Positions 1,529-32,814 of a stretch of DNA of 41,006 nt are shown in pieces. The notes beneath the pieces were generated by a model. It saw only the letters and a list, made by a program, of their open reading frames with translations, was not told the origin of the DNA and did not search any database. The stretch's first letter is position 1. Every line of letters starts with the position of its first letter. Origin of the DNA: Klebsiella pneumoniae (GTDB lineage Bacteria; Pseudomonadota; Gammaproteobacteria; Ga0077536); contig CAMCQE010000021.1 in assembly GCA_945876945.1 (NCBI GenBank), positions 1 to 41,006 of the forward strand. Reading direction: 5' to 3'. The translations under genes were made by a program, and so were the position numbers.

Positions 1529-1530
1529 CC

Positions 1531-3134: not shown

Positions 3135-3140
3135 TCCAGC

Positions 3141-3761: not shown

Positions 3762-3791
3762 AGCCGCCCTTGCCACAGGAGCAAAGCCCTC

Positions 3792-12670: not shown

Positions 12671-12701
12671 TACCTGCTGGGCTCCGTAAGGGGCGGTCGC
12701 A

Positions 12702-17599: not shown

Positions 17600-17703
17600 C
17601 ACTTTTCGCCCTTCATTTATGGTTGCAGGCGAATCGCGCTGGCAAAGGCGTCGCCCACTTGGCAGAATCGCTGCGTTTTCCGGCCTGGGTGCCCTCTCCA
17701 ATA

Positions 17704-18702
17704 ATGTCGTCTCCATCTGCCTCTGCCGGTGACTCCGGATATGAACTAACCCGTTCGCTCATCGCTGGGCCTATGGCGGCAGTCGACGCCCTGATGCGCG
17801 AGCGCCTGTACTCAGACGTGCCGCTCATCAATCAGGTGAGCCATTACGTGATCGCAAGCGGCGGCAAGCGCATGCGGCCGGCCTTGGCCCTGCTGAGCGC
17901 CTGTGCCTTGGGTTACGAAGGCCAGCGACACATCGATCTGGCCGTGATCGTAGAACTGATTCACACCGCGACCCTGCTCCACGACGATGTGGTCGATTCA
18001 TCCTTGCTTCGACGCGGGCGCGAAACGGCTAACACCGTCTGGGGCAACGAGGCCAGCGTGCTCGTGGGAGATTTCCTGTACTCACGGGCCTTTCAGATGA
18101 TGGTCGACATCGGGAGCCTTAGAATCCTGCAAATTCTTGCTGATGCGACCAACACTATCGCTGAAGGCGAAGTGATGCAGCTCGTGAATTGCCATGACCC
18201 GGAAACTACGGAGCGGCGTTATCTCGACACCATCCGGTTCAAGACCGCCAAGCTGTTTGAGGCTGCCGCTCAACTGGGCGCGGTGCTGGCAGGCAGTTCA
18301 CCCGAAATTGAAATTGCGCTCGCCTCTTACGGTCGACATCTTGGCACCGCATTCCAGTTGGTGGACGACGCATTGGACTACAGCGCCACCGCCTCAGAGA
18401 TCGGTAAAAACATTGGCGACGATCTGGCGGAGGGCAAACCCACCTTGCCGCTGCTGTACGCGATGTGGAAGGGATCACCGGATCAGGCGGCGCTGATCCG
18501 CCACGCTATCGAACATGGCGGGCTCGATCACATCAATGCAATCTCTGCCGCAATTGAATCGACCGGTGCCATCACTTACACTTTCGCGCTCGCCGAGGCC
18601 GAAGCGTCGAAAGCACGGTCAGCCTTGGAGAACGTACCAGTCTCGCAATATCTCGAAGCGCTACTCGCGCTCTCCAGGTTTGCGGTGGTGCGGAAGTCGT
18701 AA
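17704..18702 (+). CDS. ispB: Polyprenyl (octaprenyl) diphosphate synthase
   Basis: A 332-residue trans-prenyltransferase that builds the long isoprenoid side chain of ubiquinone from IPP and FPP. Both aspartate-rich motifs are present: LLHDDVVD (first DDxxD) and QLVDDALDY (second), with GGKRMRP near the N-terminus, RGRETANTVWGN after the first motif and GKPTLPLL. The start at 17704 (MSSPSASAG) is preferred over an in-frame ATG at 17623 because the extra 27 residues look non-conserved. In related genomes ispB is divergent from rplU, as here. tRNA-Pro begins 9 bases after its stop, and the hopanoid-phosphonate operon follows on the same strand. Confidence 0.93.
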   Translation: MSSPSASAGDSGYELTRSLIAGPMAAVDALMRERLYSDVPLINQVSHYVIASGGKRMRPALALLSACALGYEGQRHIDLAVIVELIHTATLLHDDVVDSSLLRRGRETANTVWGNEASVLVGDFLYSRAFQMMVDIGSLRILQILADATNTIAEGEVMQLVNCHDPETTERRYLDTIRFKTAKLFEAAAQLGAVLAGSSPEIEIALASYGRHLGTAFQLVDDALDYSATASEIGKNIGDDLAEGKPTLPLLYAMWKGSPDQAALIRHAIEHGGLDHINAISAAIESTGAITYTFALAEAEASKARSALENVPVSQYLEALLALSRFAVVRKS

Positions 18703-18874: not shown

Positions 18875-19960
18875 ATGACTGCTGGTTCCCCTACCGCAGC
18901 CGACGAAGCCTTCCAGCTCGCCATCTTGCAGGGCGTCTCACGCACCTTCGCGCTCACAATTCCAGTGTTGCCCTCAAGCCTGTCACGCGCAGTGGGTAAC
19001 GCTTATCTGCTGTGTCGCATTGCCGACACCATCGAGGACGATGCCGGCCTCTCTCTGAACGAAAAACAGCACTACGCGGACCGCTTTAACGACATAGTGC
19101 TCGGCAAAGCCGACCCGGCACCCTTCGGTGCCGAACTCTCAGCGCGCCTGGCTCCGCATGCAACGGCCGCGGAACGCGAACTTATCGCCAACACCGACCG
19201 AGTCATTCGGATCACCCTGTCGTTTGCGCCAGCCCAACAGGCCGCACTGGCGCGCTGCGTCCGCGTCATGTCGGACGGCATGATTCACTATCAGGGTCAG
19301 GAAACGCTGGACGGTTTAAGCGATCAAATCGCTATGGACAGATACTGCTATTACGTCGCAGGGGTGGTCGGTGAAATGCTCACTGAACTCTTCTGTCACC
19401 ATTGCCCGAGCCTCAAACCAGAGCGCGAGAAGCTGCTTCGGCTAGGCGTGTCCTTTGGCCAAGCCTTGCAAATGACGAACATCCTGAAAGACATCTGGGA
19501 AGACCGCAGTCGCGGTGCCTGCTGGCTGCCACGATCGGTGTTTGACCCACGCGGTCTGCGCCTCAGTACGCTGGCACCCGGCGGCGGAGGAACGGCTTTC
19601 GCGGCTGGACTGAACGATCTCATCGCGGTCGCCCACGGCCATATCAAGAACGCGCTTGAGTACACCTTGATGCTGCCTTCCAACGAAACAGGCATTCGCA
19701 AATTTTGCCTCTGGGCGCTCGGAATGGCAGTGCTGACGCTGCGGCGCATTCATGAAAACCCGCACTTCATGAGCGGACAGGACGTCAAGATTTCGCGGCG
19801 CAGCGTCAAAGCAACGATCATTCTGACGAGTCTCAGTGCCCGCTCCGATTTGGCACTCAAAAGCCTTTTCGGACTAGCCGCAACAGGCCTGCCCCTCGCC
19901 CACGTACCCGCGTCGGCACCGGCATTGATTGCCGGAATGGAATCTCGACACCGTCTTTAG
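18875..19960 (+). CDS. Squalene synthase (one-step, eukaryote-like type)
   Basis: A 361-residue trans-isoprenoid head-to-head synthase. The substrate-binding motifs are DTIEDD (residues 51-56) and NILKDIWED (202-210). The segments VSRTFALTIPVLP and YCYYVAGVVGEMLTELF resemble farnesyl-diphosphate farnesyltransferases, which make squalene in one enzyme from two FPP, rather than the bacterial HpnC/HpnD pair. No hpnC, hpnD or hpnE is nearby, which fits a one-step enzyme. Phytoene synthase is the main alternative, but no carotenoid gene is adjacent. It is the first gene of the hopanoid-phosphonate operon and supplies squalene for a hopene cyclase that is not in the window. An AGGA-like site lies rather far upstream, so the exact start is moderately certain. 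Confidence 0.85.
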   Translation: MTAGSPTAADEAFQLAILQGVSRTFALTIPVLPSSLSRAVGNAYLLCRIADTIEDDAGLSLNEKQHYADRFNDIVLGKADPAPFGAELSARLAPHATAAERELIANTDRVIRITLSFAPAQQAALARCVRVMSDGMIHYQGQETLDGLSDQIAMDRYCYYVAGVVGEMLTELFCHHCPSLKPEREKLLRLGVSFGQALQMTNILKDIWEDRSRGACWLPRSVFDPRGLRLSTLAPGGGGTAFAAGLNDLIAVAHGHIKNALEYTLMLPSNETGIRKFCLWALGMAVLTLRRIHENPHFMSGQDVKISRRSVKATIILTSLSARSDLALKSLFGLAATGLPLAHVPASAPALIAGMESRHRL

Positions 19961-19995
19961 GGACGGGGCTACGAGACTCTGGCAAACCTCCGGTT

Positions 19996-20718
19996 ATGAA
20001 TGAACGCGCCCCTGCCGGAATCGTGGTAGCACTTGAGGCCGAAGCCTCAAGCTGCGAACGCTGGCGACAATCTGGCGAGATTTGCATCAAGTTAACCGGT
20101 CCGGGCGCGGAACGTGCGGCTGCAGGCGCCCGGTCACTGGTAGACGAAGGCGTGAGCTGTCTTGTGAGTTGGGGAACCAGCGGTGCGCTGGCGCCAGACC
20201 TGCGAGCTGGCGCGTTACTCATCGTGACGCACACTACCGACTCGATCGGCAACGAGTACACGAGCGATATCCGACTGGTCGAAGGCTTTCGAGTCGCCCT
20301 CGGCACGCTTTCGCCATCACTCGGACGTGCCCTTACCGTCGACGCTCCCGTGATGGGTCAGGCGTGCAAGCTTGACCTCGCCGGCCGCTATGCGGCCACA
20401 TCAGTCGACATGGAATCTGCCGCGGTGGCCGAGGTGGCCCGCGGCGCGGGGCTGCCGTTCGTGGCCGTTCGCGCGGTGGTTGACGCGCTCACTTTCGACA
20501 TTCCACTGGCAGCCTGCGCCGGAATGGGCGAAGACGGCGTTTCACGCCCCCTGCGGGTGTTGTCCGCGCTCGCCGCACGTCCGTTTGAATTGCCGCAACT
20601 GCTCAGGCTGGCGGCACACTTCTCCGCCGCCTGCAGAACGCTCAAATCTGCCGCCAGCCTGTTGGAAAACGACTCGTGGTCAAATCCTTTGGTGCCTACC
20701 GTGGGAGCAATGCGGTGA
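19996..20718 (+). CDS. hpnG: Hopanoid-associated nucleoside phosphorylase HpnG
   Basis: A 240-residue member of the purine nucleoside phosphorylase/MTA nucleosidase superfamily. The N-terminal strand IVVALEAEAS, the glycine-rich WGTSGALAP and the ribose-binding TSVDMESAAVA (Asp138-Met-Glu140) are visible. In hopanoid clusters HpnG removes adenine from adenosylhopane, the HpnH product, to give (phospho)ribosylhopane, the precursor of bacteriohopanetetrol. hpnH is in this window at 29060. It follows the squalene synthase by 35 bases. The stop overlaps the GTG start of the next gene by 3 bases within a GTGA, so translation is probably coupled. Confidence 0.85.
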   Translation: MNERAPAGIVVALEAEASSCERWRQSGEICIKLTGPGAERAAAGARSLVDEGVSCLVSWGTSGALAPDLRAGALLIVTHTTDSIGNEYTSDIRLVEGFRVALGTLSPSLGRALTVDAPVMGQACKLDLAGRYAATSVDMESAAVAEVARGAGLPFVAVRAVVDALTFDIPLAACAGMGEDGVSRPLRVLSALAARPFELPQLLRLAAHFSAACRTLKSAASLLENDSWSNPLVPTVGAMR

Positions 20719-21326
20719 CGCAGCGCTCGAAGCCCTACGACGCGCAGCTCGCAGCCTGGCTGGTTGGTCCGCTGGCGCAAGGCCCCATCACGCCCAATCA
20801 TCTGACCGCCTTGCGCCTGCTGACGGGCATGGCCGGCGCCTTCATTTTTGCTGTGTGCGAGGCACCTAATCTGGCCGCCTGGCTGATTGTGTTATCCAAC
20901 TTTCTAGACCACACCGATGGCGAACTGGCGCGACTCAGCGGCCGCCAAAGCAGGTTCGGCCACAACTTCGATCTGGTGTCAGACGCGCTGGTCACCAGCG
21001 GCATGTTCATCGGCATCGGTATCGGCCTACTGCAGGCGGAGGGCGCGTTCGCTTTGGTGCAGGGACTGGTGGCCGGACTGGCGGTTGCCGCCATCTTTCA
21101 TTTGCGCAATACCCTTGAAAGCCGTTACGGAAAGAACGTTACACGCCAGCCCCGTTGGGGAGGATTCGAGGCAGAAGACGTGCTTTACCTCATCCCGCTG
21201 ATGAGCCTCTCAGGAGAGCTAAAACTCTTTCTTGCGGCCGCGAGCATGGGAGCACCCATCGCGTTGGTCATTGTTGTCCTTCATTACCGTGCGGTTGAAC
21301 GACGCGCGCAGGGTGAGCTTTCATGA
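20715..21326 (+). CDS. CDP-alcohol phosphotransferase (candidate AEP-lipid transferase)
   Basis: A 203-residue multi-pass membrane protein carrying the complete CDP-alcohol phosphotransferase signature DxxDGxxAR(x8)GxxxDxxxD: Asp65, Asp68-Gly69, Ala72-Arg73, Gly82, Asp86 and Asp90. All four metal-binding aspartates are present, so it should be active. Such enzymes move a phosphoalcohol (or phosphonate) between a CMP-linked donor and a hydroxyl, in the membrane. The start is GTG at 20715, with GGGAG 7 bases upstream; it overlaps the hpnG stop, and the gene's own stop overlaps hpnA by 4 bases. Because this operon encodes AEP synthesis and two nucleotidyltransferases, CMP-AEP is the likeliest donor. 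The acceptor, diacylglycerol or a hydroxylated hopanoid, cannot be read from sequence. A phosphatidylglycerol- or inositol-type reaction is the alternative. Confidence 0.85.
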   Translation: MTQRSKPYDAQLAAWLVGPLAQGPITPNHLTALRLLTGMAGAFIFAVCEAPNLAAWLIVLSNFLDHTDGELARLSGRQSRFGHNFDLVSDALVTSGMFIGIGIGLLQAEGAFALVQGLVAGLAVAAIFHLRNTLESRYGKNVTRQPRWGGFEAEDVLYLIPLMSLSGELKLFLAAASMGAPIALVIVVLHYRAVERRAQGELS

Positions 21327-22312
21327 GCATTCTGGTGACGGGCGCATCCGGTTTTGTGGGCAGTGCGGTGGTTCGAGCGCTGCTCGCGCAAAACGAAAAG
21401 GTGCGAGTGCTGGTGAGGCCCGCCAGCGATCGAAGCAATGTGCGGAATCTTGCCATCGAGCTTGTCGAAGGCGACTTGCGCGACCCTGCCTCATTACAGC
21501 GAGCCTGCGCCGGCTGCCGCGGGCTCTATCACGTGGCGGCTGACTATCGACTGTGGACGCGCGATCCCAACGAACTCTACGCAAGCAATGTCGAAGGCAC
21601 TCGCCATCTGATGAGCGCCGCGCTTAAAGCCAAGATCCCCCGCATTGTTTACACCAGCAGCGTGGCCACGCTCGGCATCCACCCCGATGGCACTGCCGCC
21701 ACCGAAGACACGCCGGTCACAGAGGCCGATATGATCGGGCATTACAAGCGCTCGAAATTTCTGGCCGAAGCGCTGGTTCAGCAACTCGTGCAACAGGAGG
21801 GTCTGCCCGCCGTTATCGTCAACCCGTCGACGCCAATCGGTCCCCATGATGTGAAGCCCACCCCCACCGGACGGATGATTCGGGATGCGTGGTTCGGCCG
21901 GATCCCGGCCTATGTTGATACCGGGCTTAACATTGTTCACGTGGAAGACGTGGCACACGGTCATCTGCTGGCGTTTGCCACGGGCGCAATTGGGAGACGC
22001 TACATTCTTGGCGGAGAGGACATGGCGCTCCGCGACATTCTCGCCGTGATCGCGGAGCTCGCCGGGCGTTCGCCGCCGCGCATCGAGCTCCCGCGATTGG
22101 GCCTCATGCCTGTCGCGGCACTCGCCGAAGCATGGGCATGGTTAACCCATGGCAAAGAGCCGCAAGTCACGCTGGACGGCTTGCGCATGTCGCGCAAGAA
22201 GATGTTTTTCGATTCTTCGCGCGCGGTGCAGGAACTGGGCTACAGCTTTCGGCCGGCCAGGGCCGCGCTTGCCGCCGCCGTTGAATGGTTCAGCCAGCGA
22301 CCTGATCGCTGA
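21323..22312 (+). CDS. hpnA: Hopanoid-associated sugar epimerase HpnA
   Basis: A 329-residue extended short-chain dehydrogenase/reductase. The Rossmann motif GASGFVG is at residues 7-13, and the catalytic pair Tyr141 and Lys145 lies in HYKRSKF, with a serine-rich VYTSSVATLG strand before it. VNPSTPIGPHDVKPTPTG and the NIVHVEDVAHGH region are typical of the HpnA family in hopanoid loci. Its exact substrate is not established; a sugar-nucleotide or the ribosyl side chain of a hopanoid are possibilities. It overlaps the CDP-alcohol phosphotransferase by 4 bases and is followed after 2 bases by a nucleotidyltransferase, tying it to both the hopanoid and phosphonate genes. Confidence 0.88.
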   Translation: MSILVTGASGFVGSAVVRALLAQNEKVRVLVRPASDRSNVRNLAIELVEGDLRDPASLQRACAGCRGLYHVAADYRLWTRDPNELYASNVEGTRHLMSAALKAKIPRIVYTSSVATLGIHPDGTAATEDTPVTEADMIGHYKRSKFLAEALVQQLVQQEGLPAVIVNPSTPIGPHDVKPTPTGRMIRDAWFGRIPAYVDTGLNIVHVEDVAHGHLLAFATGAIGRRYILGGEDMALRDILAVIAELAGRSPPRIELPRLGLMPVAALAEAWAWLTHGKEPQVTLDGLRMSRKKMFFDSSRAVQELGYSFRPARAALAAAVEWFSQRPDR

Positions 22313-22314
22313 AT

Positions 22315-23055
22315 ATGGATGCCATCCTGCTCGCTGCCGGGCTTGGCCACCGTCTGGGTCGCAGCGATGGCCGACCCAAAGCGCTGCTCGAGTTCGGCGG
22401 GCAATCCCTGCTGGCCAGGCATCTCGCGAACCTTGCGGATCTGGGCATTGAACGCGTCACTGTCTGTACCGGCTATCGCGCCGACCTGCTCGAACAGGCC
22501 ATTACGGCCTATCGTCGGCCCGAGACTAGCTGCATCGTGAATCCGGACTATCATCAAGGCAGCGTGAAAAGCCTCTGGACTGTCCGGGGCGCCTTACGAA
22601 GCGCAGGCGAGGTCTTATTGATGGACGCCGATGTGCTCTATCCTGCGAGCATCCTGCAGCGTCTGGCTGCCAGCGAGCACCGCAACTGCATGCTGCTCGA
22701 TCGCCACTACGTGCCGGGCGATGAACCCGTCAAGGTATGCGTTCACGCGGGCCAGATTGTGGAATTCAGCAAACGACCTGACCCAACTCTCACGTGGGAT
22801 TTCATGGGCGAATCGATCGGCTTTTTTAAATTCGATGCCGCTCTTGGCGCACGCTTGGCCGCCTTGACGGAAGCCTATGTGGCGGACGGCCGCAGCGACT
22901 CCCCTCACGAAGCGGCGATCCGCGATTTGATTCTGGCTGGCGACCACGGCATCGGGTTCGAAGACGTCAGCGGCGCGCCCTGGATCGAGATCGACTTTCC
23001 CGATGATATCCGCCGCGCCACCACCGAAATCCTGCCGGCGCTCGAACATGCTTGA
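22315..23055 (+). CDS. Stand-alone nucleotidyltransferase (LicC/PntC-like)
   Basis: A 246-residue NTP-transferase with the nucleotide-binding signature [10 protein letters not shown] (residues 6-15) followed by [10 protein letters not shown]. The metal-binding MDADVLY (about 102-108), [11 protein letters not shown] and the C-terminal [11 protein letters not shown] are as in phosphocholine- or sugar-phosphate cytidylyltransferases of the LicC type. It likely activates a small phosphate or phosphonate with CTP. It is the second nucleotidyltransferase of the operon, since a related domain is fused to the next gene. It may make CMP-AEP, or activate a different head group for the CDP-alcohol phosphotransferase. 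Its last 8 bases overlap the next start. Confidence 0.82.
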
Positions 23056-24694
23056 AGCCGCTTCAACACCGCCACGCCGCACGCGCCAACTGCGATCGCT
23101 GCTGGAATCGGCCGCGCTGGAGTTTTTACTTGAGGCCCACAACGGCCTGAGCGCGCGCATCGTCGAAGAAGCGGGCTTCAAAGGCATTTGGGCTAGCGGT
23201 CTCGCGATCTCCGCCCAACTTGGCGTGCGTGACAACAACGAAGCGAGCTGGACGCAGGTGGTCGACGTTGCCGAATTCATGGCCGACGTCACCTCCATTC
23301 CTATCCTGCTGGACGGGGACACGGGCTACGGCAACTTCAACAACATGCGTCGGCTGGTACGAAAACTCGAGCAACGCGGCGTCGCCGGTGTCTGCATCGA
23401 AGACAAGCTCTTTCCCAAAACCAACAGCTTTATTGCTGGCGACCGTCAGCCGCTGGCCGAGGTCAATGAATTCTGCGGCAAAATCGCCGCCGGCAAGGAC
23501 ATCCAGTCGGATGACGACTTCTGCATCGTGGCTCGCGTCGAAGCGCTCATCGCTGGCTGGGACATGGCCGAAGCGCTGCGCCGGGCCGAGGCTTATCGAG
23601 TGGCCGGGGCGGATGCCGTTCTTATCCACAGCAAGCTTTCCCGGCCCGATCAAATCCTCGAGTTTGCTCAGGAATGGGCCAATCGCCTGCCCTTGGTGAT
23701 TGTCCCGACCAAGTACTACAGCACGCCGACTGAGGTGTTTCGGCGGGCCGGTATCAGCGCGGTGATTTGGGCTAATCCGCTCATTCGGGCGGCGGCGTCT
23801 GCCATGCAGAGCGTGGCGGCGCAGATTCAGCGCGAACAATCGATCGCAGAAGTTGAAGACCGCATTGCCTCGATGGAAGAGATCTTCCGCCTGCAGGGCG
23901 CCGAAGAACTCGAAGCAGCGGAAGAGCGGTATTTCGGTGCCCGACAAAACGAAACCCGCGCGATTGTGCTCGCCGCCTCACGCGGCGAAGGCTTTGCCAG
24001 CCTGACCGATGACCGGCCCAAGGTCATGCTCCCCATCGCGGGCAAACCGCTACTCCGTCATCTGGTCGACAAGCTTAAAAAACGCGGCATTGACGACATT
24101 ACTGTGGTGGCCGGCTACAAGGCAGAAGCTATCGATATGGGCGGGATCCGGGTGCTGATTAACCCACAACACAGCACCACCGGCGAACTCTCCTCACTGC
24201 TCTGCGCGCGCCAGCATTTCACTGAGGACTTTGTGCTGATTTACGGCGACGTGCTGTTTCGCAGCTACATTCTGCGTGATCTGCTGGAGAGCGAAGCGCC
24301 CATCACGGTGGTGGTGGACTCCAGTCAGACCCAACTCACCAGCGATGCAGGTGATTTTGCCTGGTGTAGCGAGGCGGACGATCGCTCGAGCTGGGGCCAG
24401 GCGGTGCGCCTCAAAAAAATCAGTACCGGAGCGGGCAACAACGGCGCCGCGCCGCACGGCCGGTGGATCGGCATCGTTCGCGTGTGTGGGCCGGGCCGGG
24501 ACTGGTTCGAGGCCACGCTGGCCAGCTTACGCGAACGTGCAGACTTCGACCGCTTAAGCGTTCCTGACCTCATCAATCAGTTGATCGCTGACAACAAGCC
24601 GGTGCAGGTTTGGTACGTGCACGGGCACTGGCTTGATGTGAATTCGGTTCGCGATCTGGAACGCGCGGGCAATTTCGCTGCCGGCAGTCACTGA
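23048..24694 (+). CDS. pepM: Phosphoenolpyruvate mutase fused to a nucleotidyltransferase (PepM-PntC type)
   Basis: A 548-residue two-domain protein. Residues 1-300 are PEP mutase, which forms the carbon-phosphorus bond of phosphonopyruvate. They carry the metal-binding DGDTGYGN (from Asp89) and the diagnostic mutase motif [10 protein letters not shown] (118-127), which distinguishes PepM from isocitrate lyase-like relatives. Residues about 303-548 are a nucleotidyltransferase domain ([42 protein letters not shown]), as in PntC, which makes CMP-AEP. Its first motif has SRGEG rather than the GxGxR of the stand-alone neighbour. The ATG at 23048 lies inside the end of the preceding gene and gives a normal PepM N-terminus. 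phosphonopyruvate decarboxylase follows after 12 bases, which pulls the unfavourable PEP mutase reaction forward. Confidence 0.94.
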
Positions 24695-24706
24695 GCGTCG
24701 GTTCGC

Positions 24707-25855
24707 GTGATTGAGGCGAAGGTTTTTATCGAAACCGCGCGGTCGGCAGGCTTTGGCTGGTACACGGGCGTGCCGTGCTCCTACCTCACGCCGTTCATCA
24801 ATTACGTCATCGGCGACCAGTCGCTGAACTATGTCTCGGCGGCGAACGAAGGCGACGCCGTCGCGATCGCTGCCGGGCTGCATCTCGGTGGTCACCGCGC
24901 CGTGGTGATGATGCAGAACTCAGGTCTGGGGAATGCCGTGAGCCCGCTCAGCTCGCTGACGCATGTCTTCGGGATCCCGATGCTGCTCATCTGCACCCAC
25001 CGGGGCGCACCGGAGGTTCCGGATGAACCGCAACACGCCTTGATGGGACAGATCACCGGTCAGATGCTCGACACCTTGTCGATATGCTGGGAACCGTTTC
25101 CCGCGTCAGCGGCCGTGCTTGATGAAGCACTGGCGCGGGCGACCACGCACATGGCGCAGCATCACCAGCCCTACGCGTTCCTGATGCCCAAAGGCGCGGT
25201 CTCGCCCTATCCGCTGGCGCCGCAGCCGCCTCGCGCAGTGGCAGAGCCGCCCCCGGTGATGGGCGCACATTGGCCAGCGCAGCGCCCGACGCGGTCTGAG
25301 GTGCTAGCGCGGGTCATCGACGCCACACCGCTCACCGGCACCGTCGTGATTGCGACCACCGGCTACACGGGGCGGGAACTTTATGCGCTGACCGACCGCG
25401 CGAACCACTTCTATATGGTGGGATCGATGGGATGCGCCTCGGCCTTCGGCCTGGGGCTCGCGCTGGCCCGCCCAGACTTACACGTGGTGATCTTGGACGG
25501 CGACGGCGCCGCGCTGATGCGTATGGGCAATTTTGCGACTCTTGGCTATTACCGCCCGCCCAATCTTTCGCACCTGCTACTCGACAACGAGGCCCACGAT
25601 TCGACCGGCGGGCAAACCACGGTGAGCGCGGGGGTCGACTTCGCCAGTATTGCCGCAGCCTGCGGCTACGCGTCAGCACAGCGGGCGGGAAGTCTCGACG
25701 CGATAAGCCAATTTTTCGGCCGCCAAACAGGTGCTGGCCCCGGTTTTATGCACGTCAAAATCGCCACAGGCACGCTAAGCGATCTCCCGCGACCTGCAAT
25801 CACCCCGCCGGCTGTACTGGCGCGCTTAAGGCAGCATCTGGAAGGCACCGCATGA
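24707..25855 (+). CDS. ppd: Phosphonopyruvate decarboxylase
   Basis: A 382-residue thiamine diphosphate enzyme that decarboxylates phosphonopyruvate to phosphonoacetaldehyde. The family N-terminus is clear (FGWYTGVPCSYLTPFINYV, about residues 16-34), with AANEGDAVAIAAG and MMQNSGLGNAVSPLSSL near it. The TPP-binding GDG(x)n N motif is at Gly265-Asp266-Gly267 through DNEAHDSTGGQ. The start is GTG at 24707. Sulfopyruvate decarboxylase is related, but the flanking pepM and transaminase decide the assignment. Its stop overlaps the next ATG by 4 bases. Confidence 0.94.
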   Translation: MIEAKVFIETARSAGFGWYTGVPCSYLTPFINYVIGDQSLNYVSAANEGDAVAIAAGLHLGGHRAVVMMQNSGLGNAVSPLSSLTHVFGIPMLLICTHRGAPEVPDEPQHALMGQITGQMLDTLSICWEPFPASAAVLDEALARATTHMAQHHQPYAFLMPKGAVSPYPLAPQPPRAVAEPPPVMGAHWPAQRPTRSEVLARVIDATPLTGTVVIATTGYTGRELYALTDRANHFYMVGSMGCASAFGLGLALARPDLHVVILDGDGAALMRMGNFATLGYYRPPNLSHLLLDNEAHDSTGGQTTVSAGVDFASIAAACGYASAQRAGSLDAISQFFGRQTGAGPGFMHVKIATGTLSDLPRPAITPPAVLARLRQHLEGTA

Positions 25856-26937
25856 ATCGTCTTGTTCTGCTCAATCCGGGGCCGGTAAATCTGAGCGATC
25901 GCGTCCGGCAAGCGCTACAAAAGCCCGATCTCTGCCATCGGGAGGCAGAATTTGTCACGCTGCAGGCGTCGATTCAAAGCCGCCTGCTGCGGGTTTACGG
26001 GCTGGATAACACGGACTGGGCCGCCGTTTTGCTGACCGGATCGGGCACTGCGGCCGTTGAGGCAATGGTGACCAGCTGCGTGCCGCGAGGAGGCCGTCTG
26101 CTCGTGATGGACAACGGCGTGTATGGGGAGCGAATCAAGACGATGGCGGAACGCAGCGAGATCCCGGTCGCCATCGCGGCGAGCAACTGGTTATCGCCGC
26201 TTAACCTCGTTGCCGCGCGCGAGCAACTCGAGCGTTGTCCGGACATTACCCATGTGGCCGCCGTCCATCATGAAACCACCACCGGCCGGCTCAATGCAAT
26301 TGACCAGCTCGCAGCACTATGTCGGGAATTCAAGCGTCCGTTGTTGCTCGATGCGGTGAGCAGCTTTGGTGCTGAGACCATCGACTTCAATCGCTGGCCA
26401 ATCGCCGCCTGCGCGGCCACCGCCAACAAATGCCTGCACGGCGTACCAGGCGCATCGTTTGTGATCGTTAACCGGCATGCATTTGCGGAAGCCGGCGCGC
26501 CGGCGCGCTCGCTCTATCTCGATCTCGCCGGCTATCTGGCCCAACAGGATGCAGGCGGCACACCGTTCACCCAGTCGGTGCAGGCGTTTTATGCGCTCGA
26601 CGAAGCGCTCGGCGAATTCATGGATGCAGGTGGGGTCGCGGCAAGACAGCAAACGTATCGTCAACGGCTCGAACGGATTCACACCAAACTTGACACGTTG
26701 GGCGTCACAGGCTTGCTGCCGCAAGCAGACAGCGCTTGTGTGCTACACGCTTTTCAATTGCCTCAAGGATTCAGCTATCAGGCCCTGCACGACGGCCTCA
26801 AGGCGCGAGGCTTCGTCATTTATGCCGGGCAAGGACGCTTGGCGGCGAGCATGTTCCGCATTTCGATGATGGGCGACATTGGGGAGTCAGACCTGCTCCG
26901 TTTGGAGCAGGCCTTGAGCGAGGTGCTGAACCGCTGA
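25852..26937 (+). CDS. phnW: 2-aminoethylphosphonate transaminase
   Basis: A 361-residue fold-type I PLP enzyme. It begins with the PhnW signature LLNPGPVNLS and CHREAEF, has the cofactor-binding TGSGTAAVEAM, the DAVSSFGAE strand and the PLP lysine Lys193 in ATANKCLHGVPG. It interconverts phosphonoacetaldehyde and AEP. In phosphonate catabolism it runs toward the aldehyde, but beside pepM and ppd, and with no phnX, phnA or phosphonate transporter nearby, it should make AEP. It is the last gene of the operon; its ATG overlaps the ppd stop by 4 bases, and dxs converges 12 bases downstream with no terminator visible. Confidence 0.93.
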   Translation: MNRLVLLNPGPVNLSDRVRQALQKPDLCHREAEFVTLQASIQSRLLRVYGLDNTDWAAVLLTGSGTAAVEAMVTSCVPRGGRLLVMDNGVYGERIKTMAERSEIPVAIAASNWLSPLNLVAAREQLERCPDITHVAAVHHETTTGRLNAIDQLAALCREFKRPLLLDAVSSFGAETIDFNRWPIAACAATANKCLHGVPGASFVIVNRHAFAEAGAPARSLYLDLAGYLAQQDAGGTPFTQSVQAFYALDEALGEFMDAGGVAARQQTYRQRLERIHTKLDTLGVTGLLPQADSACVLHAFQLPQGFSYQALHDGLKARGFVIYAGQGRLAASMFRISMMGDIGESDLLRLEQALSEVLNR

Positions 26938-26949
26938 AGGCGCGCGACG

Positions 26950-28824
26950 CTAGGCTTTCTGCAGGGTTTCCCACCGCGCCTTGATTGCGGCTTCCATTTG
27001 CGGGACATCCAGCCCCGCCTCGCGCAGCATGTCTTCACGCGCTCCGTGCTGAATGAAGCAATCGGGCAAGCCGAGGTGCAAAACCTGAGCGGCAACGCCG
27101 TGTTCGGCCAGCGCCTCGGTTACGGCGCCACCGGCACCGCCCACAATGGTGTTTTCGTCCAGCGTGACCAGCAAATCGTGGGACGCGGCCATCTTCAACA
27201 CCAGCTCGGCATCGATGGGTTTGATGAAGCGCATGTTGACCACCGTGGCATCCAGACGCGCCCCGATTTCTTCCGCCGCCGCCACGAGACTACCAAAGGC
27301 CAAGAGTGCGATGCCGCGCCCTTCGCGCCGAATTTCGGCTTTACCAATCGGCAGGCAGGTCATCTGCTTCTCGACCGGCACCCCGGTGCCGCCGCCGCGC
27401 GGGTAGCGCACCGCTGCAGGACCATCAACGCAAAAGCCGGTGTAGAGCATCTGGCGGCATTCGTTCTCATCGGCAGGGGCCATGAACACAAGCCCCGGCA
27501 TACAGCGCATGAAACTCACGTCGAAACTGCCGTTGTGGGTAGGTCCATCGGCGCCCACTACCCCGGCACGGTCGATGGCGAACAACACGGGCAGGCCCTG
27601 CGTCACCACGTCGTGCACAGCCTGATCGTAGCCGCGCTGCAGGAAGGTGGAGTAAATCGCTACGACCGGCTTTACGCCGTCGCAGGCCATGCCGGCGGCA
27701 ACCGCCACGGCATGCTGTTCGGCGATCGCGACGTCGAAATAGCGGTCCGGATATTCGCGGGCATAACGCACGAGACCCGAGCCTTCGCGCATCGCCGGCG
27801 TAATGGCAACGAGGCGGGGGTCTTGCGCGGCCATATCGCAAATCCACTCGCCGAATACGTCGCTGTAGCTGAGTTTGGGCGTTTTGCCGGACGGCACGAT
27901 GCCCACAGAAGGATCAAACGGCGACACTCCGTGATATTTGACGGGGTCGGCTTCGGCCGGGGCATATCCTTTGCCCTTCTTGGTGATGATGTGCAAAAAC
28001 TGGGGGCCGCTCAGTTCCTTGATGTTCTTCAAGGTCGACAACAGCGTGGGCAGATGGTGCCCATCGATCGGGCCGATGTAGTTGAACCCGAATTCTTCGA
28101 ACAGGGTGCCGGGAACAACCAGACCTTTCACATGCTCTTCGGCTCGCCGCGCCAGTTCCCACACGTTAGGCATCTGCGACAGCACTTTCTTGCTGCCTTC
28201 GCGCACCGTGGTGTAGAGCTTGCCGGAAATCAGCTGCGCGAAGCGATTGGCCAAGGCGCCAACGTTGGGCGAAATCGACATGTTGTTGTCGTTGAGGATC
28301 ACCAGCAGGTCGGTGCCGGTATCGCCCGCATGATTGAGGGCTTCAAACGCAAGGCCTGCGGTAATGCCGCCGTCGCCAATTACCGCGACCGCGCGACGTC
28401 CGCTACCGGTTTGCTTGGCGGCGATGGCCATGCCGAGGGCGGCGCTGATGGAGGTGCTGGAATGGCCAACACCAAAGGCGTCGTACGGGCTTTCCTCGCG
28501 TTTGGGAAATGGGGCCACACCCTGCCATTGGCGGATGGTGTGCATCCGGTCGCGCCGACCGGTAAGAATTTTATGGGGATAGGCCTGATGCCCCACGTCC
28601 CACACCAGACGATCTTCTGGCGTGTTGTAGAGGTAGTGCAAGGCGACGGTGAGTTCCACCGAACCCAGGCCGGCGGCGAAATGTCCACCGCTTTGGCTGA
28701 CAGAATCCAGCAGGTATCCGCGAAGTTCGCGCGCCACCTGTTCCAGAGACGATTCTGGTAGTGCGCGTAAATCATGGGGTGAGTTAATCCGCGAGAGTAG
28801 CGGATACTGGCTTTGCTCGGTCAT
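26950..28824 (-). CDS. dxs: 1-deoxy-D-xylulose-5-phosphate synthase
   Basis: A 624-residue TPP enzyme condensing pyruvate with glyceraldehyde 3-phosphate, the first and flux-controlling step of the MEP pathway. Visible are [31 protein letters not shown], the TPP motif [14 protein letters not shown] through [13 protein letters not shown], and the transketolase-like C-terminal half ([23 protein letters not shown]). Full length. It stands between two hopanoid operons, so it probably supports their precursor demand. A candidate promoter lies about 50 bases upstream. The adjacent 235-base region (28825-29059) is the only sizeable intergenic gap between dxs and hpnH and should hold the promoters of both. 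Confidence 0.97.
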
Positions 28825-28900: not shown

Positions 28901-29059
28901 GCCAAGGGGCTGAGCAGGGCCGGTTCGCTGCACCTGCGTCATTGGATGCAGGCGTGCGCTTCCGATGCTTTTATCAATGTCGTACCATGCCCAGCTTCCA
29001 GCCTATTAATCCTTTGAATCGCAGTGGTTTATTGCCAGCTGCCCCGGGGTCTTCAAAGC

Positions 29060-30190
29060 ATGAGTGTTCCGTTTATCCAACAGTACCGAGTCGCCCGCTA
29101 CATCATCAGCAACAAGCTGCGCGGGATTAAACGCTACCCTCTCGTCCTGATGCTTGAACCCCTCTTCCGTTGCAATCTGGCCTGCGCTGGCTGCGGCAAG
29201 ATTGATTATCCAGACGAGATTCTCGACAAGCGCCTCAGCGTTGAAGAATGCATGCAGGCGGTTGATGAAAGTGGCGCGCCGGTGGTGTCTATCGCCGGTG
29301 GCGAGCCGCTGATTCACAAAGAAATGGCCCAGATCGTCAAAGGCTATGTGGAACGCAAGAAGTTCGTTTATCTCTGCACCAACGCGCTCCTGCTCGACCG
29401 CAAGATGGACGAATACACCCCGTCGCCCTATCTGACCTTCTCCATCCATCTCGATGGCAACAAGGAACGGCATGACAACTCGGTCTGCCGTGAGGGCGTG
29501 TATGAAAAGTGCGAGCAGGTCATTCGCAAAGCCCGCGCGCGCGGTTTCCGGGTAACGGTCAACTGCACCCTCTTCCAGGGCGAAACTGCCCCGGAAATCG
29601 GCCAGTTCATGGACCGCATGATGGCGCTTGACGTTGAGGCAGTGACGATGTCGCCCGGCTACAGCTACGAGCGTGCGCCACGGCAGGACGTCTTCCTGAA
29701 GCGCGAATCCAGCAAGCAACTCTTCCGGGATATTTTCAAACTCGGGCAAGGCAAGAAGTGGCGCTTTAACCAGTCGCCGCTGTACATGGATTTTCTGGCC
29801 GGTAACCAAACCTATCACTGCACGCCGTGGGGCGCGGTCACGCGCAACGTCTTCGGCTGGCAGAAACCCTGCTATCTGCTGGTGGGCGAGGGTTACGCCA
29901 AGACCTTTGACGCCCTCATGAATGAGACGGAGTGGGATCGCTACGGCACCGGGGTCAACCCCAAATGCGCCAACTGCATGATGCATTGCGGTTATGAAAT
30001 GACCGCCGTCGACGACACCTTTTCCCACCCGTTGAAAGCCGCCAAGGTGGCCTTCTTTGGTCCCAAAACCTCCGGACCGATGGCGCCGGAAGTCCCGTTC
30101 CGTTATCCGGAGCCAGTGCCCAACGCACCCCGACCGGTTGCGATCGCCGACAGCGACGCCGACAACAGTTCCAGCAAGCGCGTCGCCTGA
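29060..30190 (+). CDS. hpnH: Adenosylhopane synthase HpnH (radical SAM)
   Basis: A 376-residue radical SAM enzyme that joins the 5'-deoxyadenosyl group to diploptene (hopene), creating adenosylhopane, the entry to all C35 hopanoids. The cluster motif CNLACAGC holds Cys38, Cys42 and Cys45, in the hallmark stretch YPLVLMLEPLFRC. The C-terminal NPKCANCMMHCGYE carries further cysteines typical of the family. The ATG at 29060 matches known HpnH N-termini (MSVPF), so the 12 extra codons upstream were left out. It starts the second hopanoid operon, hpnH-hpnB-hpnM-mlaA. HpnG, which acts on its product, is in the first operon. Confidence 0.96.
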   Translation: MSVPFIQQYRVARYIISNKLRGIKRYPLVLMLEPLFRCNLACAGCGKIDYPDEILDKRLSVEECMQAVDESGAPVVSIAGGEPLIHKEMAQIVKGYVERKKFVYLCTNALLLDRKMDEYTPSPYLTFSIHLDGNKERHDNSVCREGVYEKCEQVIRKARARGFRVTVNCTLFQGETAPEIGQFMDRMMALDVEAVTMSPGYSYERAPRQDVFLKRESSKQLFRDIFKLGQGKKWRFNQSPLYMDFLAGNQTYHCTPWGAVTRNVFGWQKPCYLLVGEGYAKTFDALMNETEWDRYGTGVNPKCANCMMHCGYEMTAVDDTFSHPLKAAKVAFFGPKTSGPMAPEVPFRYPEPVPNAPRPVAIADSDADNSSSKRVA

Positions 30191-30241
30191 CGCGCATTTG
30201 ACCCCTGGCTGCTAGCACCTGGCATTGAGGGGGTCGTAGCG

Positions 30242-31360
30242 ATGTGGGTGTGGGTGCTACTTTCTGCGGGCCTCTGGGCGGCAATTTTGTTGCTGCCCTG
30301 GCGCCCATGGGGAACCTCCGAGCAGATCTCGGCTGCCGCCCCGGGCGCTCTCGCCGGCTTGGGTGGCGTCACGGCGCTGGTGCCCGCCCGCAATGAGGTT
30401 TCCTGCATCGGTACCACCTTGCCAAAGCTTGCTGCGCAGGGCGAACTGGCCCGAATCATTCTGATAGACGATGAAAGCGATGATGGCACCGGCGAATTGG
30501 CGCGGAGCCTCGGGATACCGGCCCTCACAGTGTTATCCGGCCAACGCTCACCCGGCGGATGGTCAGGCAAGCTTTGGGCGCTGGAGCAAGGCCTGCAAGA
30601 GGTCGACTCGCCCTATGTGCTACTGATGGACGCCGACATCGCACTCGAACCCGGCATTCTCGATGCGCTTTTGGGCAAGTTGCAGCGTGAGTCCCTCGAT
30701 CTGGTGTCGGTGATGGCAGCGCTGTCGATGCATACCTGGTGGGAGCGTCTCCTCATCCCGCCGTTTATCTACTTCTTCAAGATGATTTACCCCTTCGCGC
30801 TAGCCAATAGTCAGCACCGAATGGTGGCCGCCGCCGCTGGGGGTTGCATCCTCATCAGAACCGAAACCTTGCGCGGCATTGGCGGCTTTGCAGCGCTGCG
30901 CAACGCGCTAATCGACGACTGTACCCTGGCCAGAGTCGTGAAAAACCAGGGTGGCAAAACCTGGCTTGGTTTATCGCGGGATGTTGCCGCCGCACGGCCT
31001 TACGAATCCGTCGGCGCAATCTGGAATATGGTCGCCCGAACAGCCTTTACCCAGTTGCGCTATTCGAAGGGCCTGCTGGCGGTCTGCACCTTGCTGCTGA
31101 TAGTGACCTTCGTCATGCCAATTGCCGGGCTCTTCTCGGGCCAGCCCAACACCAGGCTGGTCGCCCTCGGGGCATGCCTCGCGATGTCCGCGAGCTACTT
31201 ACCCATCCTGCGTTACTATGGCCGCCCCGTGCTCTGGGCGCTGACCTTGCCCTTGGCTGCCAGCCTTTATCTGGCGATGACATGGACTTCCGCCATACGC
31301 TACTTCCGCGGTGAACGTTCCCGTTGGAAAAATCGCAGCTATGAGCGTGACCCTTCCTGA
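30242..31360 (+). CDS. hpnB: Hopanoid-associated glycosyltransferase HpnB
   Basis: A 372-residue membrane-anchored family 2 glycosyltransferase. There is an N-terminal membrane segment, then the GT-A core with ALVPARNEV (about residues 44-52), ILIDDESDDGTG, PGGWSGKLWALEQG, LLMDADIALEPG and the acceptor-side LIDDCTLA. The C-terminus has three to four hydrophobic helices. LIPPFIYFFKMIYPFALAN is split here as LIPPFIYFFKMIYPF and is typical of HpnB. The family is found in hopanoid loci and is thought to glycosylate hopanoid side chains, but the sugar is unknown. It follows hpnH by 51 bases, with a GAGGGGG ribosome binding site. Confidence 0.88.
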   Translation: MWVWVLLSAGLWAAILLLPWRPWGTSEQISAAAPGALAGLGGVTALVPARNEVSCIGTTLPKLAAQGELARIILIDDESDDGTGELARSLGIPALTVLSGQRSPGGWSGKLWALEQGLQEVDSPYVLLMDADIALEPGILDALLGKLQRESLDLVSVMAALSMHTWWERLLIPPFIYFFKMIYPFALANSQHRMVAAAAGGCILIRTETLRGIGGFAALRNALIDDCTLARVVKNQGGKTWLGLSRDVAAARPYESVGAIWNMVARTAFTQLRYSKGLLAVCTLLLIVTFVMPIAGLFSGQPNTRLVALGACLAMSASYLPILRYYGRPVLWALTLPLAASLYLAMTWTSAIRYFRGERSRWKNRSYERDPS

Positions 31361-31378
31361 GCGTTTAAGGACTACATC

Positions 31379-31978
31379 ATGCTGAAATCCCTTCGCCTCT
31401 TGCTCTCCTTGTGCCTGCTTGGCGCTTCTGGCCTCGCTACGGCCGCCGAAGCTACCGCTGTCGTCGACACCTTACACAGCGCCTTGCTGGAGACGATGAA
31501 GAACGCCACAACCCTGGGCTTCAAAGGCCGCATGGAAAAACTCGGTCCGGTGCTCGACAGCACTTTCGATTTTCCGTCAATCGCGAAGGTGGTGACCGGC
31601 CGACACTGGCAAAGCTTGCCCGAAGATAAACGCCAAGCCTTCATCAAAGCCTTCCGTGACCTGAGCGTCGCCACCTACGCCGAAAATTTCTCCGGCTTCG
31701 GTGGGGAAAGCTTTGAAACGCTAGGTCACGAGCAGAAGAAAAATTCGGAGCTGGTGCGTACCAACATCGTGACGGGCGATGCGAAAAGGGTCTCACTCAA
31801 CTATGTGCTGACCAAGAATGGAGAGGAGTGGCACATTGTGAATGTGGTCGCCGAAGGCGTCTCCGATCTCGCACTCAAACGCTCTGAGTACGACGGCATC
31901 ATTGGCGCCGAAGGCATTGATTCGCTGGTTGCGAAACTCAATGGCAAGGTTGCATCATACGTGGCGGCCGGCAAGTAA
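31379..31978 (+). CDS. hpnM: MlaC/Ttg2D-like periplasmic lipid-binding protein, HpnM type
   Basis: A 199-residue protein with a signal peptide ending in ATAAEA and an MlaC-like domain (FDFPSIAKVVTGRHW, LSVATYAENFSGFGG, NGEEWHIVNVVAEGVSDLALKR). MlaC proteins carry phospholipids between the outer and inner membranes; the HpnM version is found in hopanoid loci and is presumed to carry hopanoids or related lipids through the periplasm. It sits 18 bases after hpnB and is followed by mlaA, while the mlaFEDB transporter genes are not in the window. It may be a second, hopanoid-linked Mla-type system. Confidence 0.85.
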   Translation: MLKSLRLLLSLCLLGASGLATAAEATAVVDTLHSALLETMKNATTLGFKGRMEKLGPVLDSTFDFPSIAKVVTGRHWQSLPEDKRQAFIKAFRDLSVATYAENFSGFGGESFETLGHEQKKNSELVRTNIVTGDAKRVSLNYVLTKNGEEWHIVNVVAEGVSDLALKRSEYDGIIGAEGIDSLVAKLNGKVASYVAAGK

Positions 31979-32040
31979 ATTGCCGCGCTTTTGTGCGCTT
32001 CTACAGCGGAACCGAACTCCTCGGCTGGAACCCTGACATC

Positions 32041-32814
32041 ATGAAAAAAGAATCGGTGACACGTTCGCTCATCGCCCTTGGCCTAACAACATTGCTCGGC
32101 GGATGTGCAACGTCCCAAACAAATACGGCTTCCAACGACCCGTGGGAAAAGCCAAACCGTGCGATTTACAACTTCAACGACAGCCTTGACCGCAATTTCT
32201 TTGTGCCGGTCGCCAAAGGCTACGTGTGGGCCACGCCGAAACCGGTTCGGGCCAGCGTCACCAACGCCTTCGATAACGTGTCCTATCTGAACGTCATCGC
32301 GAACAACCTGCTGCAGGCCAAGTTCACCGGCGCCGCCGTCGGCACGGGTCGATTTCTCGTGAATAGCACGGTGGGCATCGGCGGCCTTTTCGATCCTGCC
32401 ACCAGTATGGGACTGCCGCTGTCAGACGAAGATTTGGGGCAGACGTTCGGCAAGTGGGGAATGGGCGAAGGACGCTATGTGGTGCTTCCGCTTACGGGAC
32501 CGAACTCGGTCCGAGACTTACCCAACGTCGCCTCGGCCGCGGCACTCAACCCGCTCGTCTACCTGACGGCGGCCGTCACGGTTCCTTTGGGCGTGTTGCA
32601 GACCATCAACATGCGCGCCAACTTGCTGGAAGAAACGAATATCCGCGATCAGGCCGCGCTTGACCCGTATACCTTCGTCCGCGAAGCCTATCGCCAGCGG
32701 CGCGAATTCCTGATTTACGACGGCAATCCGCCGAGCGAGAGCATCGACGATTACCTCAACGCTCCCGATGAACCAAAAGCTGCCGACGAATCCTCGGTGC
32801 TTAAGGTCTACTAA
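32041..32814 (+). CDS. mlaA: MlaA/VacJ-family outer membrane lipoprotein
   Basis: A 257-residue lipoprotein with lipobox LLGGC (Cys22). The VacJ/MlaA domain contains DPWEKPNRAIYNFNDSLDR (split as DPWEKPNRAIYNFND), RFLVNSTVGIGGLFDPA, LGQTFGKWGMGEGRYVVLP and GPNSVRD. MlaA removes phospholipids from the outer leaflet of the outer membrane and passes them to MlaC. Its partner here is the HpnM-type protein 62 bases upstream. The ATG at 32041 was chosen because it starts the signal peptide. An open frame from 31993 has no signal. The MlaA-HpnM pair ends the second hopanoid operon. Confidence 0.93.
   Translation: MKKESVTRSLIALGLTTLLGGCATSQTNTASNDPWEKPNRAIYNFNDSLDRNFFVPVAKGYVWATPKPVRASVTNAFDNVSYLNVIANNLLQAKFTGAAVGTGRFLVNSTVGIGGLFDPATSMGLPLSDEDLGQTFGKWGMGEGRYVVLPLTGPNSVRDLPNVASAAALNPLVYLTAAVTVPLGVLQTINMRANLLEETNIRDQAALDPYTFVREAYRQRREFLIYDGNPPSESIDDYLNAPDEPKAADESSVLKVY

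Follow-up and report, generated by a model that had tools for sequence, protein, structure and literature searches.

A hopanoid operon interlocked with an aminoethylphosphonate pathway points to phosphonate-headed hopanoids

Why are hopanoid genes interlocked in one operon with genes for 2-aminoethylphosphonate (AEP), and which lipid would receive the phosphonate? Hopanoids are the bacterial analogues of sterols, the counterparts of cholesterol, and their fossils serve as biomarkers. We have analysed a window of 41,006 nucleotides, i.e., the whole stretch of DNA under study, in which the gene calls place eight genes in one plus-strand run at 18875–26937, all of them as described in the initial annotation. 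Its further statement that every junction after hpnG is an overlap or a gap of at most 12 bases is confirmed: six of the seven junctions are of this kind, and the sole larger gap, 35 bases, lies between the squalene synthase gene and hpnG.

The run begins with a squalene synthase gene of the SQS_PSY family (18875–19960) and hpnG (19996–20718), for the phosphorylase that removes adenine from adenosylhopane. The gene of a membrane CDP-alcohol phosphotransferase (20715–21326; PF01066), the proposed AEP-hopanoid transferase, follows. Its reading frame can start at 20676, which gives a 43-base overlap with hpnG, or at the GTG at 20715, which gives a 4-base overlap (GTGA); the latter start is more likely, as homologues begin near there. 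The transferase gene overlaps by 4 bases (ATGA) with hpnA (21323–22312), for a hopanoid-associated NAD-dependent epimerase/reductase, and after a gap of 2 bases comes a gene for a PntC-like cytidylyltransferase (22315–23055), proposed to activate AEP with CTP. This gene overlaps by 8 bases with pepM (23048–24694, ATG at 23048), which is fused to a LicC-like nucleotidyltransferase domain. A gap of 12 bases leads to ppd, the phosphonopyruvate decarboxylase gene (24707–25855), and phnW, the AEP aminotransferase gene (25852–26937), starts at the ATG at 25852 with a 4-base overlap; its listed start at 25432 is a mere same-frame extension back into ppd.

Beyond 26937 the hopanoid theme continues. 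The minus-strand dxs (26950–28824; TIGR00204, 911 bits, cut-off 466), for isoprenoid precursor supply, is followed on the plus strand by three hopanoid genes at 29024–31978: hpnH (29024–30190; TIGR03470, 540 bits, cut-off 225), for the adenosyl-hopene transferase of the first side-chain step, hpnB (30242–31360; TIGR03469, 390 bits, cut-off 379), for a hopanoid-associated glycosyltransferase, and hpnM (31379–31978; TIGR03481, 199 bits, cut-off 160), for a hopanoid-associated protein. Elsewhere the genome (G000) encodes hpnJ, squalene-hopene cyclase (SHC; C81, 772 bits, cut-off 431) and HpnN (C4, 813 bits, cut-off 752). The gene order of the window is repeated in other loci (e.g., L022 and L027), with proteins 37–91% identical to those of the window, so the arrangement is not due to chance.

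The gene identities assigned initially have been supported in large part. PepM (TIGR02320, 394 bits, cut-off 320), Ppd (TIGR03297, 435 bits, cut-off 313) and PhnW (TIGR03301, PhnW-AepZ, 375 bits, cut-off 361) all score above curated NCBIfam cut-offs, as does HpnA (TIGR03466, 486 bits, cut-off 368), and the ten-residue PEP mutase signature EDKXXXXXNS is found at residue 118. HpnG, on the other hand, reaches 148 bits with its best match, TIGR03468, below the cut-off of 187, and the squalene synthase, which matches Pfam PF00494 with 186 bits, is above no NCBIfam cut-off, with 117 against 287 for its best family, TIGR01559. As for the AEP pathway, which had been called complete, the three steps up to AEP stand on these families, while the step to CMP-AEP would depend on a nucleotidyltransferase. 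By sequence, the window holds two of them, and the stand-alone one, not the one fused to pepM, is nearest PntC: its closest solved relative is 6pd1, PntC of T. denticola (E 5e-11), while the nearest structure to the fused domain is 1jyk, LicC. The stand-alone protein carries LAAGxGxR in 19 of 19 aligned rows, and its D104 and E199 align by eye to E104 and E196, the contacts of the AEP amine in PntC.

The acceptor of AEP is then a matter of the CDP-alcohol phosphotransferase. It shows the catalytic motif of its family and a predicted helical membrane fold: DxxDGxxARx8GxxxD is invariant across 30 transferase sequences, the final Asp of DxxDGxxARx8GxxxDxxxD is kept in at least 90% of them, and the AlphaFold model is all-helical with a pLDDT of 91.5. 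The nearest folds to the model are AF2299 (TMq 0.72 and 0.74 for two chains and 0.58 for a further two), IPCT-DIPPS and PIP synthase, and the solved transferases most similar to it have other partners. CEPT1 and CPT1, which transfer to diacylglycerol, are among its relatives in both sequence and fold. This favours the main rival reading, in which the transferase makes a phosphonate analogue of phosphatidylethanolamine on diacylglycerol and the hopanoid genes adjoin it as both lipids are needed together; the predicted membrane fold by itself would not identify the acceptor. The initial annotation had named this diacylglycerol lipid as a simpler reading than an AEP-headed hopanoid.

The distribution of the transferase among genomes argues for the hopanoid. 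We have used 276 genomes of the class, counting the pepM-nucleotidyltransferase fusion at 60% identity or more and the transferase profile at E <= 1e-25, with co-occurrence assessed by the Fisher test; for the test at family level the number of families was set at 157, the largest family number encountered (160 in another run). The fusion occurs in 18 of the 276 genomes, and the transferase profile matches exactly these 18 and none of the 258 others. SHC lies above its cut-off in all 18, against 39 of 276 overall, and HpnH is found in 17 of the 18, against 37 of 276. In the remaining fusion genome (G258), sqs and hpnG lie beside pntC-pepM, HpnA lies beside the transferase, and both HpnN and SHC are present. 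Of the 37 genomes with HpnH, all 17 that carry the fusion also have the transferase, and it was found in none of the 20 that lack the fusion; it therefore marks the intersection of the hopanoid and phosphonate pathways. The 60% line was set post hoc and separates the 18 fusions from two weaker pepM matches (G271, 53%; G272, 43%); without it, HpnH is present in 17 of 20 pepM genomes. Only two SHC genomes in the sample lack HpnH, one of them G258; SHC and HpnH are thus nearly inseparable here, and so are a need for the side chain and a need for hopane itself.

A wider set of genomes gives a similar picture. The initial annotation had staked the link between the two pathways on the phosphonate genes accompanying hpnA/hpnG in other genomes as well, and the link withstands this test: 55 of the 80 loci have sqs or one or more of hpnA, B, G, H, I and N close to the pepM fusion, though of the 27 cyanobacterial ones only 11 have a hopanoid gene nearby. 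HpnH is present in all 47 further fusion-bearing genomes tested, which were picked for spread from the 80 loci (Gammaproteobacteria, Burkholderiales and Cyanobacteria). The cyanobacterial sample taken alone is weak: the fusion occurs in 4 of 194 genomes, all four with HpnH and one of them the chosen centre, and the association with the transferase has a p of 0.018 with this centre and 0.069 without it.

We have further observed where the transferase sits when it is separated from the phosphonate genes. In four loci (L125, L127, L135 and L137) it lies beside hpnN, hpnA, hpnG or sqs with pepM far off. Elsewhere it follows HpnI-J-K, with pepM either on that contig at a distance of about 90 kb (L140) or on another contig (L134), or lies beside HpnJ with pepM on another contig (G199 and G299). 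In four more loci (L130, L132, L136 and L138) hopanoid genes again adjoin it and pepM is absent from the contig. As these contigs run out a short way off, the two parts may come from one operon cut by assembly (L138 and L025 each stop in hpnA), and these loci were left out of the separate-location cases. On a Roseomonas plasmid, hpnA-B-C-D-E-shc-G-H-N-L are accompanied by pntC, pepM-NTP (51%), ppd, phnW and a CDP-alcohol phosphotransferase that scores 131 bits with the transferase profile. Among plasmid records, too, the transferase and the fusion go together, both being found in the same 14.

Certain loci depart from this pattern. G081 and G093 carry both the fusion and HpnH and yet gave no transferase at E <= 1e-15, although the locus of the latter (L078) seems intact, a single contig stretch holding sqs, hpnG, hpnN and hpnA; in another genome (G089) the match is weak (65 bits only). 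In a member of the window's own family (G016) the operon lacks the transferase gene; this is located at another site, next to an HpnL-like gene (L029, L123). Within the fetched stretch, the transferase has no confirmed hopanoid neighbour in L124 and L126, only weak hpnA-like matches nearby in L128, L141 and L142, and a weak hpnG-like match in L139; in Burkholderia multivorans and Cupriavidus P-10 no confirmed hopanoid neighbour besides HpnL has been found. The radical SAM gene adjoining the cyanobacterial transferase is above no family cut-off.

Overall, the hopanoid acceptor is now better supported than diacylglycerol. As diacylglycerol is near-universal, nothing obvious would confine a diacylglycerol transferase to hopanoid producers, yet in the class sample ours is confined to SHC genomes, and its gene either has hpnG/hpnN on one side and hpnA on the other or follows HpnI-J-K; we thus regard the diacylglycerol reading as unlikely, though it has more in its favour than the other alternatives. 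It is quite improbable that AEP goes to a glycan or protein, as proposed for known Pnt clusters, with the CDP-alcohol phosphotransferase serving another lipid in an incidental neighbourhood. The available text of PMC6697681, where AEP is activated to tailor the cell surface and three Pnt clusters have LicD-like and glycosyltransferase genes close by, and the HpnB glycosyltransferase encoded in the region are consistent with such a fate, but no LicD family match has been found among the scanned subset of window proteins, and transferase and fusion share the same genomes and plasmid records. That the two gene sets make no common product and form a neighbourhood merely frozen in place or moved horizontally is very improbable. 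A small number of transfers could account for the lineages, and the G+C content is slightly raised across the operon (0.62 versus 0.58–0.60); against this, the partnership is kept although the gene order differs among gamma-, beta- and alphaproteobacteria and cyanobacteria, and where the two sets separate the transferase stays on the hopanoid side.

We therefore read the operon, with a probability of roughly 0.7, as a phosphonohopanoid pathway whose transferase moves AEP to a hopanoid, the acceptor being deduced from the genomic company. With support from the sequence families, PEP is converted to phosphonopyruvate by PepM, to phosphonoacetaldehyde by Ppd and to AEP by PhnW, while squalene synthase, SHC and HpnH supply squalene, hopene and adenosylhopane, from which HpnG removes adenine. 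The stand-alone PntC-like enzyme would make CMP-AEP, and the transferase would pass AEP from it to a side-chain hydroxyl of a C35 hopanoid, probably bacteriohopanetetrol or ribosylhopane, with release of CMP. The product may be moved by HpnN (and by HpnL, present in relatives). The transferase branch that follows HpnI-HpnJ-HpnK would perform the same reaction on glucosaminyl or cyclitol-ether hopanoids. A cyclitol ether as the general acceptor has been rejected: HpnJ is found in 7 of 18 module genomes (including G199, with the gene in two pieces) versus 9 of 20 other HpnH genomes. The phosphonate may be hydroxylated in relatives by an oxygenase of the 2-oxoglutarate or PhyH type. Bdellovibrio makes a sphingophosphonolipid with 1-hydroxy-AEP, which shares the AEP-type head group but has a ceramide backbone, not a hopanoid. 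With a phosphonate and an amine, the predicted lipid would be a zwitterionic, C-P-stable hopanoid.

Among known systems, the Pnt clusters of Rice et al. 2019 (PMC6697681), whose acceptors are presumed there to be carbohydrate or lipid, share with the window, as far as the available text goes, the fusion of PEP mutase with a PF12804 nucleotidyltransferase, the AEP pathway and, by sequence similarity, a putative PntC-type cytidylyltransferase. They differ in the final transferase, which in the window belongs to the CDP-alcohol phosphotransferases and is encoded within a hopanoid operon; a term search of that text returned neither 'hopan' nor 'CDP-alcohol'. The hpn clusters of PMC12583986 resemble the window in hpnA, hpnB, hpnG, hpnH and hpnM (with shc, hpnJ and hpnN elsewhere in our genome), but the available part of that paper describes no phosphonate branch among its five hopanoid types. 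This 2025 survey quantified 63 bacteriohopanepolyols in Alphaproteobacteria, in strains that may or may not carry these genes, and its text contains neither 'phosphono' nor 'phosphorus'. The initial annotation knew of no description of such a lipid. The idea has in fact been published before, as a guess: in the available portion of a 2021 Acetobacteraceae survey (PMC8776678), the only relevant precedent that we have recognised, a Roseomonas hopene cyclase is linked to pepM and an 'undiscovered terpene-phosphonate' is suggested. The partnership is the same as in our operon; that account, in the same portion, concerns one bacterial family and comes without the transferase, a co-occurrence test, a structure or a mechanism. 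In the available text of a Burkholderia flavophos preprint (PMC12871164) 'hopan' occurs only inside words such as phosphopantetheine, and the corresponding portions of PMC9765116, PMC8692599, PMC5862535 and PMC12858407 hold no hopanoid-phosphonate link.

We consider it rather likely that phosphonohopanoids form a new class of membrane lipids, i.e., C35 hopanoids with AEP or 1-hydroxy-AEP on the side chain in gamma-, beta- and alphaproteobacteria and cyanobacteria, made by a CDP-alcohol phosphotransferase subfamily dedicated to them, of which a second branch would act on glucosamine or cyclitol-ether hopanoids. If so, the phosphonate head group would be a new route to amphipathic hopanoids, the reduced-phosphorus cycle would be tied to membrane ordering, and a function would be assigned to a transferase now annotated by family alone; Nostoc, Cupriavidus and Roseomonas are named carriers in which the lipid can be sought by mass. 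In addition, a gene for an MlaA/VacJ-like lipoprotein with a putative part in the system (31993–32814, plus strand; NF011672, 120 bits, below cut-off) stands next to hpnM in the window, and such a gene adjoins hpnM in many relatives.

We have confirmed that squalene synthase (sqs), hpnG, a membrane CDP-alcohol phosphotransferase (CDP-AP, 20715-21326), hpnA, a pntC-like nucleotidyltransferase gene, a pepM-nucleotidyltransferase fusion, ppd and phnW occupy 18875-26937 on the forward strand, with the junctions described in the initial annotation. Its gene names are backed by Pfam and NCBIfam, with reservations for two of them: HpnG is the best-matching family at a score of 148 against a cut-off of 187 (NCBIfam), and the squalene synthase is a member of SQS_PSY that passes no finer cut-off (Pfam, NCBIfam). 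The block belongs to a longer stretch of isoprenoid and hopanoid genes, with a polyprenyl synthetase upstream (17623-18702, Pfam), dxs downstream of phnW on the opposite strand, and hpnH, hpnB and hpnM beyond these on the strand of the block (NCBIfam). Other hopanoid pathway genes lie elsewhere in the genome, namely squalene-hopene cyclase (SHC) on contig C81, HpnN on C4 and HpnJ on C1. The G+C content is ~0.62 at 20001-28000 versus 0.58–0.60 on the flanks, perhaps a trace of transfer.

In a first sample of 58 genomes, the fusion, counted from matches listed at E < 1e-100, occurred in 33 of the 36 genomes of the window's family and in 1 of the 22 others. For a second sample we have drawn 276 genomes evenly from the class, each at least 90% complete. 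HpnH was present in 37 of them, SHC above its cut-off in 39, and pepM (E <= 1e-60) in 20, 18 of which carried the fusion (identity of at least 60%). The transferase, searched with its own profile at E <= 1e-25, was found in 18 genomes, exactly the same 18. SHC accompanied both in 18/18 and HpnH in 17/18; the HpnH-negative genome (G258) has sqs and hpnG on a 4 kb contig with pntC and pepM, HpnA adjoining the transferase, and also HpnN and SHC. The two genomes with weaker pepM matches (G271, G272) were negative for HpnH, SHC and the transferase in the same searches. Of the 37 genomes with HpnH, all 17 that carry the fusion have the transferase, and none of the 20 without the fusion does. The Fisher p values at genome level, 5e-16 for HpnH and 8e-18 for SHC, are made too small by relatedness; at family level p is ~1e-9, with the phosphonate genes and transferase (the module) in 10 of 24 HpnH families. 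In 8 of the 17 genomes with both HpnH and the fusion, HpnH and pepM are on the same contig, no more than 12 kb apart.

A whole-genome search also found HpnH in all 47 genomes picked for spread from the best 80 of 393 relatives. Among 194 cyanobacteria, HpnH occurs in 52, the fusion in 4 (one at 54%) and the transferase in 3, and every carrier of fusion or transferase has HpnH. When 30 fusion genomes were chosen, either for checking or because the transferase was not obvious, 27 had a match, including a weak one of 65 bits in G089, and none was found in G271, G081 and G093.

The neighbourhoods were scored in the loci of the best 80 of the 393 relatives, grouped by record title, with short contigs and truncated genes counted as misses. 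Within the fetched stretches, 28/34 gammaproteobacterial or other loci, 16/19 Burkholderiales and 11/27 cyanobacterial loci contain one or more of the genes hpnA, B, G, H, I, N and sqs, and 53/80 contain a transferase. Recurrent partners absent from the window are HpnN, HpnL, a 2-oxoglutarate-type oxygenase and PhyH proteins; for one PhyH protein the closest model is that of a phosphonate hydroxylase, at a score below its cut-off. A further 20 stretches were fetched around transferases not seen beside pepM or present as second copies. Here the transferase lies beside hpnN, hpnA, hpnG or sqs in L125, L127, L135 and L137 with pepM far away, and in L130, L132, L136 and L138, but these contigs end nearby; L131 holds pepM and hopanoid genes together, and L123 and L133 have an HpnL-type neighbour (above cut-off in L133). 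No confirmed hopanoid neighbour was found in the fetched stretches of L124, L126, L128, L139, L141 and L142, and L126 itself contains pepM-ppd-phnW. A counter-case is genome G016, with the operon lacking the transferase (L029) and a copy elsewhere (L123); similarly, sqs, hpnG, hpnN, hpnA, pntC and pepM share one stretch (L078) in G093, and the search of this genome finds no transferase.

In the cyanobacterial locus L052 (3611-8282), HpnI, a B12-type radical SAM protein with DUF4070, which passed no curated cut-off, and an ABC exporter adjoin the transferase. Four gammaproteobacterial loci (L047, L088, L097, L099) have two protein kinase-like genes upstream of pntC-pepM with a glucose-6-phosphate isomerase-like gene between, named by reading of L088 and L097. 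The operon is also present in two MAG contigs titled Klebsiella pneumoniae (L026, L095); these titles are probably wrong, since the L095 transferase groups with Burkholderiales.

A search of plasmid records found 14 that carry the fusion (aligned over 94% of its length, at least 65.8% identity): Mycetohabitans 9, Burkholderia 4 and Cupriavidus 1. The transferase search returned the same 14, and the remaining 61 pepM-matching plasmid records, most of them rhizobial, had no match to the transferase at E <= 1e-15, a limit that misses the too distant Roseomonas transferase. Mycetohabitans rhizoxinica has one 19 kb run of CDP-AP, oxygenase, HpnL, pntC, pepM, ppd, phnW, dxs, HpnN, ispH, hpnH, hpnA and hpnB. 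Burkholderia multivorans and Cupriavidus P-10 have CDP-AP, HpnL, pntC, pepM, ppd and phnW, and in these unannotated records no hopanoid gene beyond HpnL was confirmed within 14 kb. On Roseomonas marmotae plasmid p1318-3, hpnA, hpnB, hpnC, hpnD, hpnE, shc, hpnG, hpnH, HpnN, HpnL and a match to dxs surround pntC, pepM-nucleotidyltransferase (51%), ppd, phnW and CDP-AP (131 bits to the profile). Since gene orders differ between lineages, the hopanoid-phosphonate partnership is not one frozen block.

For the stand-alone nucleotidyltransferase (22315-23055), the best solved relative is the T. denticola 2-aminoethylphosphonate (AEP) cytidylyltransferase PntC, and LAAGxGxR is kept in 19/19 rows shown; we take this enzyme to be the maker of CMP-AEP. 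The PepM-fused domain (23948-24691) is nearest to LicC, and LicC's AAGLGTR is replaced in the fusions by AAx[RQ]G, which lacks that arginine (22/22 rows shown). As this glycine loop is changed but conserved, the fused domain may use a different substrate or have a non-catalytic role.

The catalytic motif of the transferase is invariant in 30 sequences, save the last aspartate (at least 90%). Its predicted model is confident (pLDDT 91.5); AF2299, IPCT-DIPPS and PIP synthases are closest to it in fold, and CEPT1 ranks lower. Within the class sample the transferase is confined to genomes that have both pathways, and many genomes place it inside a hopanoid operon; the simplest reading is therefore that it is the enzyme joining the phosphonate and hopanoid pathways. 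For this reason we prefer, at a probability of about 0.7, transfer of AEP from CMP-AEP to a C35 hopanoid; a diacylglycerol phosphonolipid, with AEP moved to diacylglycerol instead, seems unlikely. HpnJ, found in 7/18 genomes with the module versus 9/20 HpnH genomes without it, is neither enriched nor depleted, which rules out the cyclitol ether as a general acceptor. For the C35 hopanoid reading, we can infer rather than observe the acceptor atom, and whether bacteriohopanetetrol or ribosylhopane would be the acceptor.

A separate CDP-AP clade (6 rows, support 100/99) includes the transferases of L134 and L140, which directly follow HpnI, HpnJ and HpnK, each above its own cut-off. HpnJ lies 1.1 kb from the transferase in G299 and 99 bases from it in L129 (G199). 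In Pandoraea loci (L040:6633-8186 and others), CDP-AP is fused to a 2-oxoglutarate-type oxygenase, which suggests that head-group hydroxylation is coupled to transfer.

A 2021 Acetobacteraceae survey, in the part consulted, noted a linkage of pepM and hopene cyclase in Roseomonas, for which it suggested a terpene-phosphonate yet to be discovered (PMC8776678). PntC was defined by Rice et al. 2019, who presumed carbohydrate or lipid acceptors; unlike the window's operon, their Pnt account, in the sections drawn on here, is without hopanoids (PMC6697681). The excerpts used of a 2025 alphaproteobacterial hopanoid study give five types, phosphonate not among them, and describe HpnA, HpnB and HpnL as lacking an established function (PMC12583986). 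Among the results viewed from literature searches of open-licence papers, we have found no described phosphonate hopanoid.

Elsewhere in the window, a run of pilin-like proteins with an 1818 aa PilY1-like protein (854-9248) reads as a type IV pilus minor pilin operon; two of its proteins, at 2082-3134 and 3792-9248, were compared with the NCBIfam models and had no hit at E 1e-20. On the reverse strand at 11224-12868, ribF directly adjoins a gene that reads as lspA-like, while the usual order places ileS between the two.
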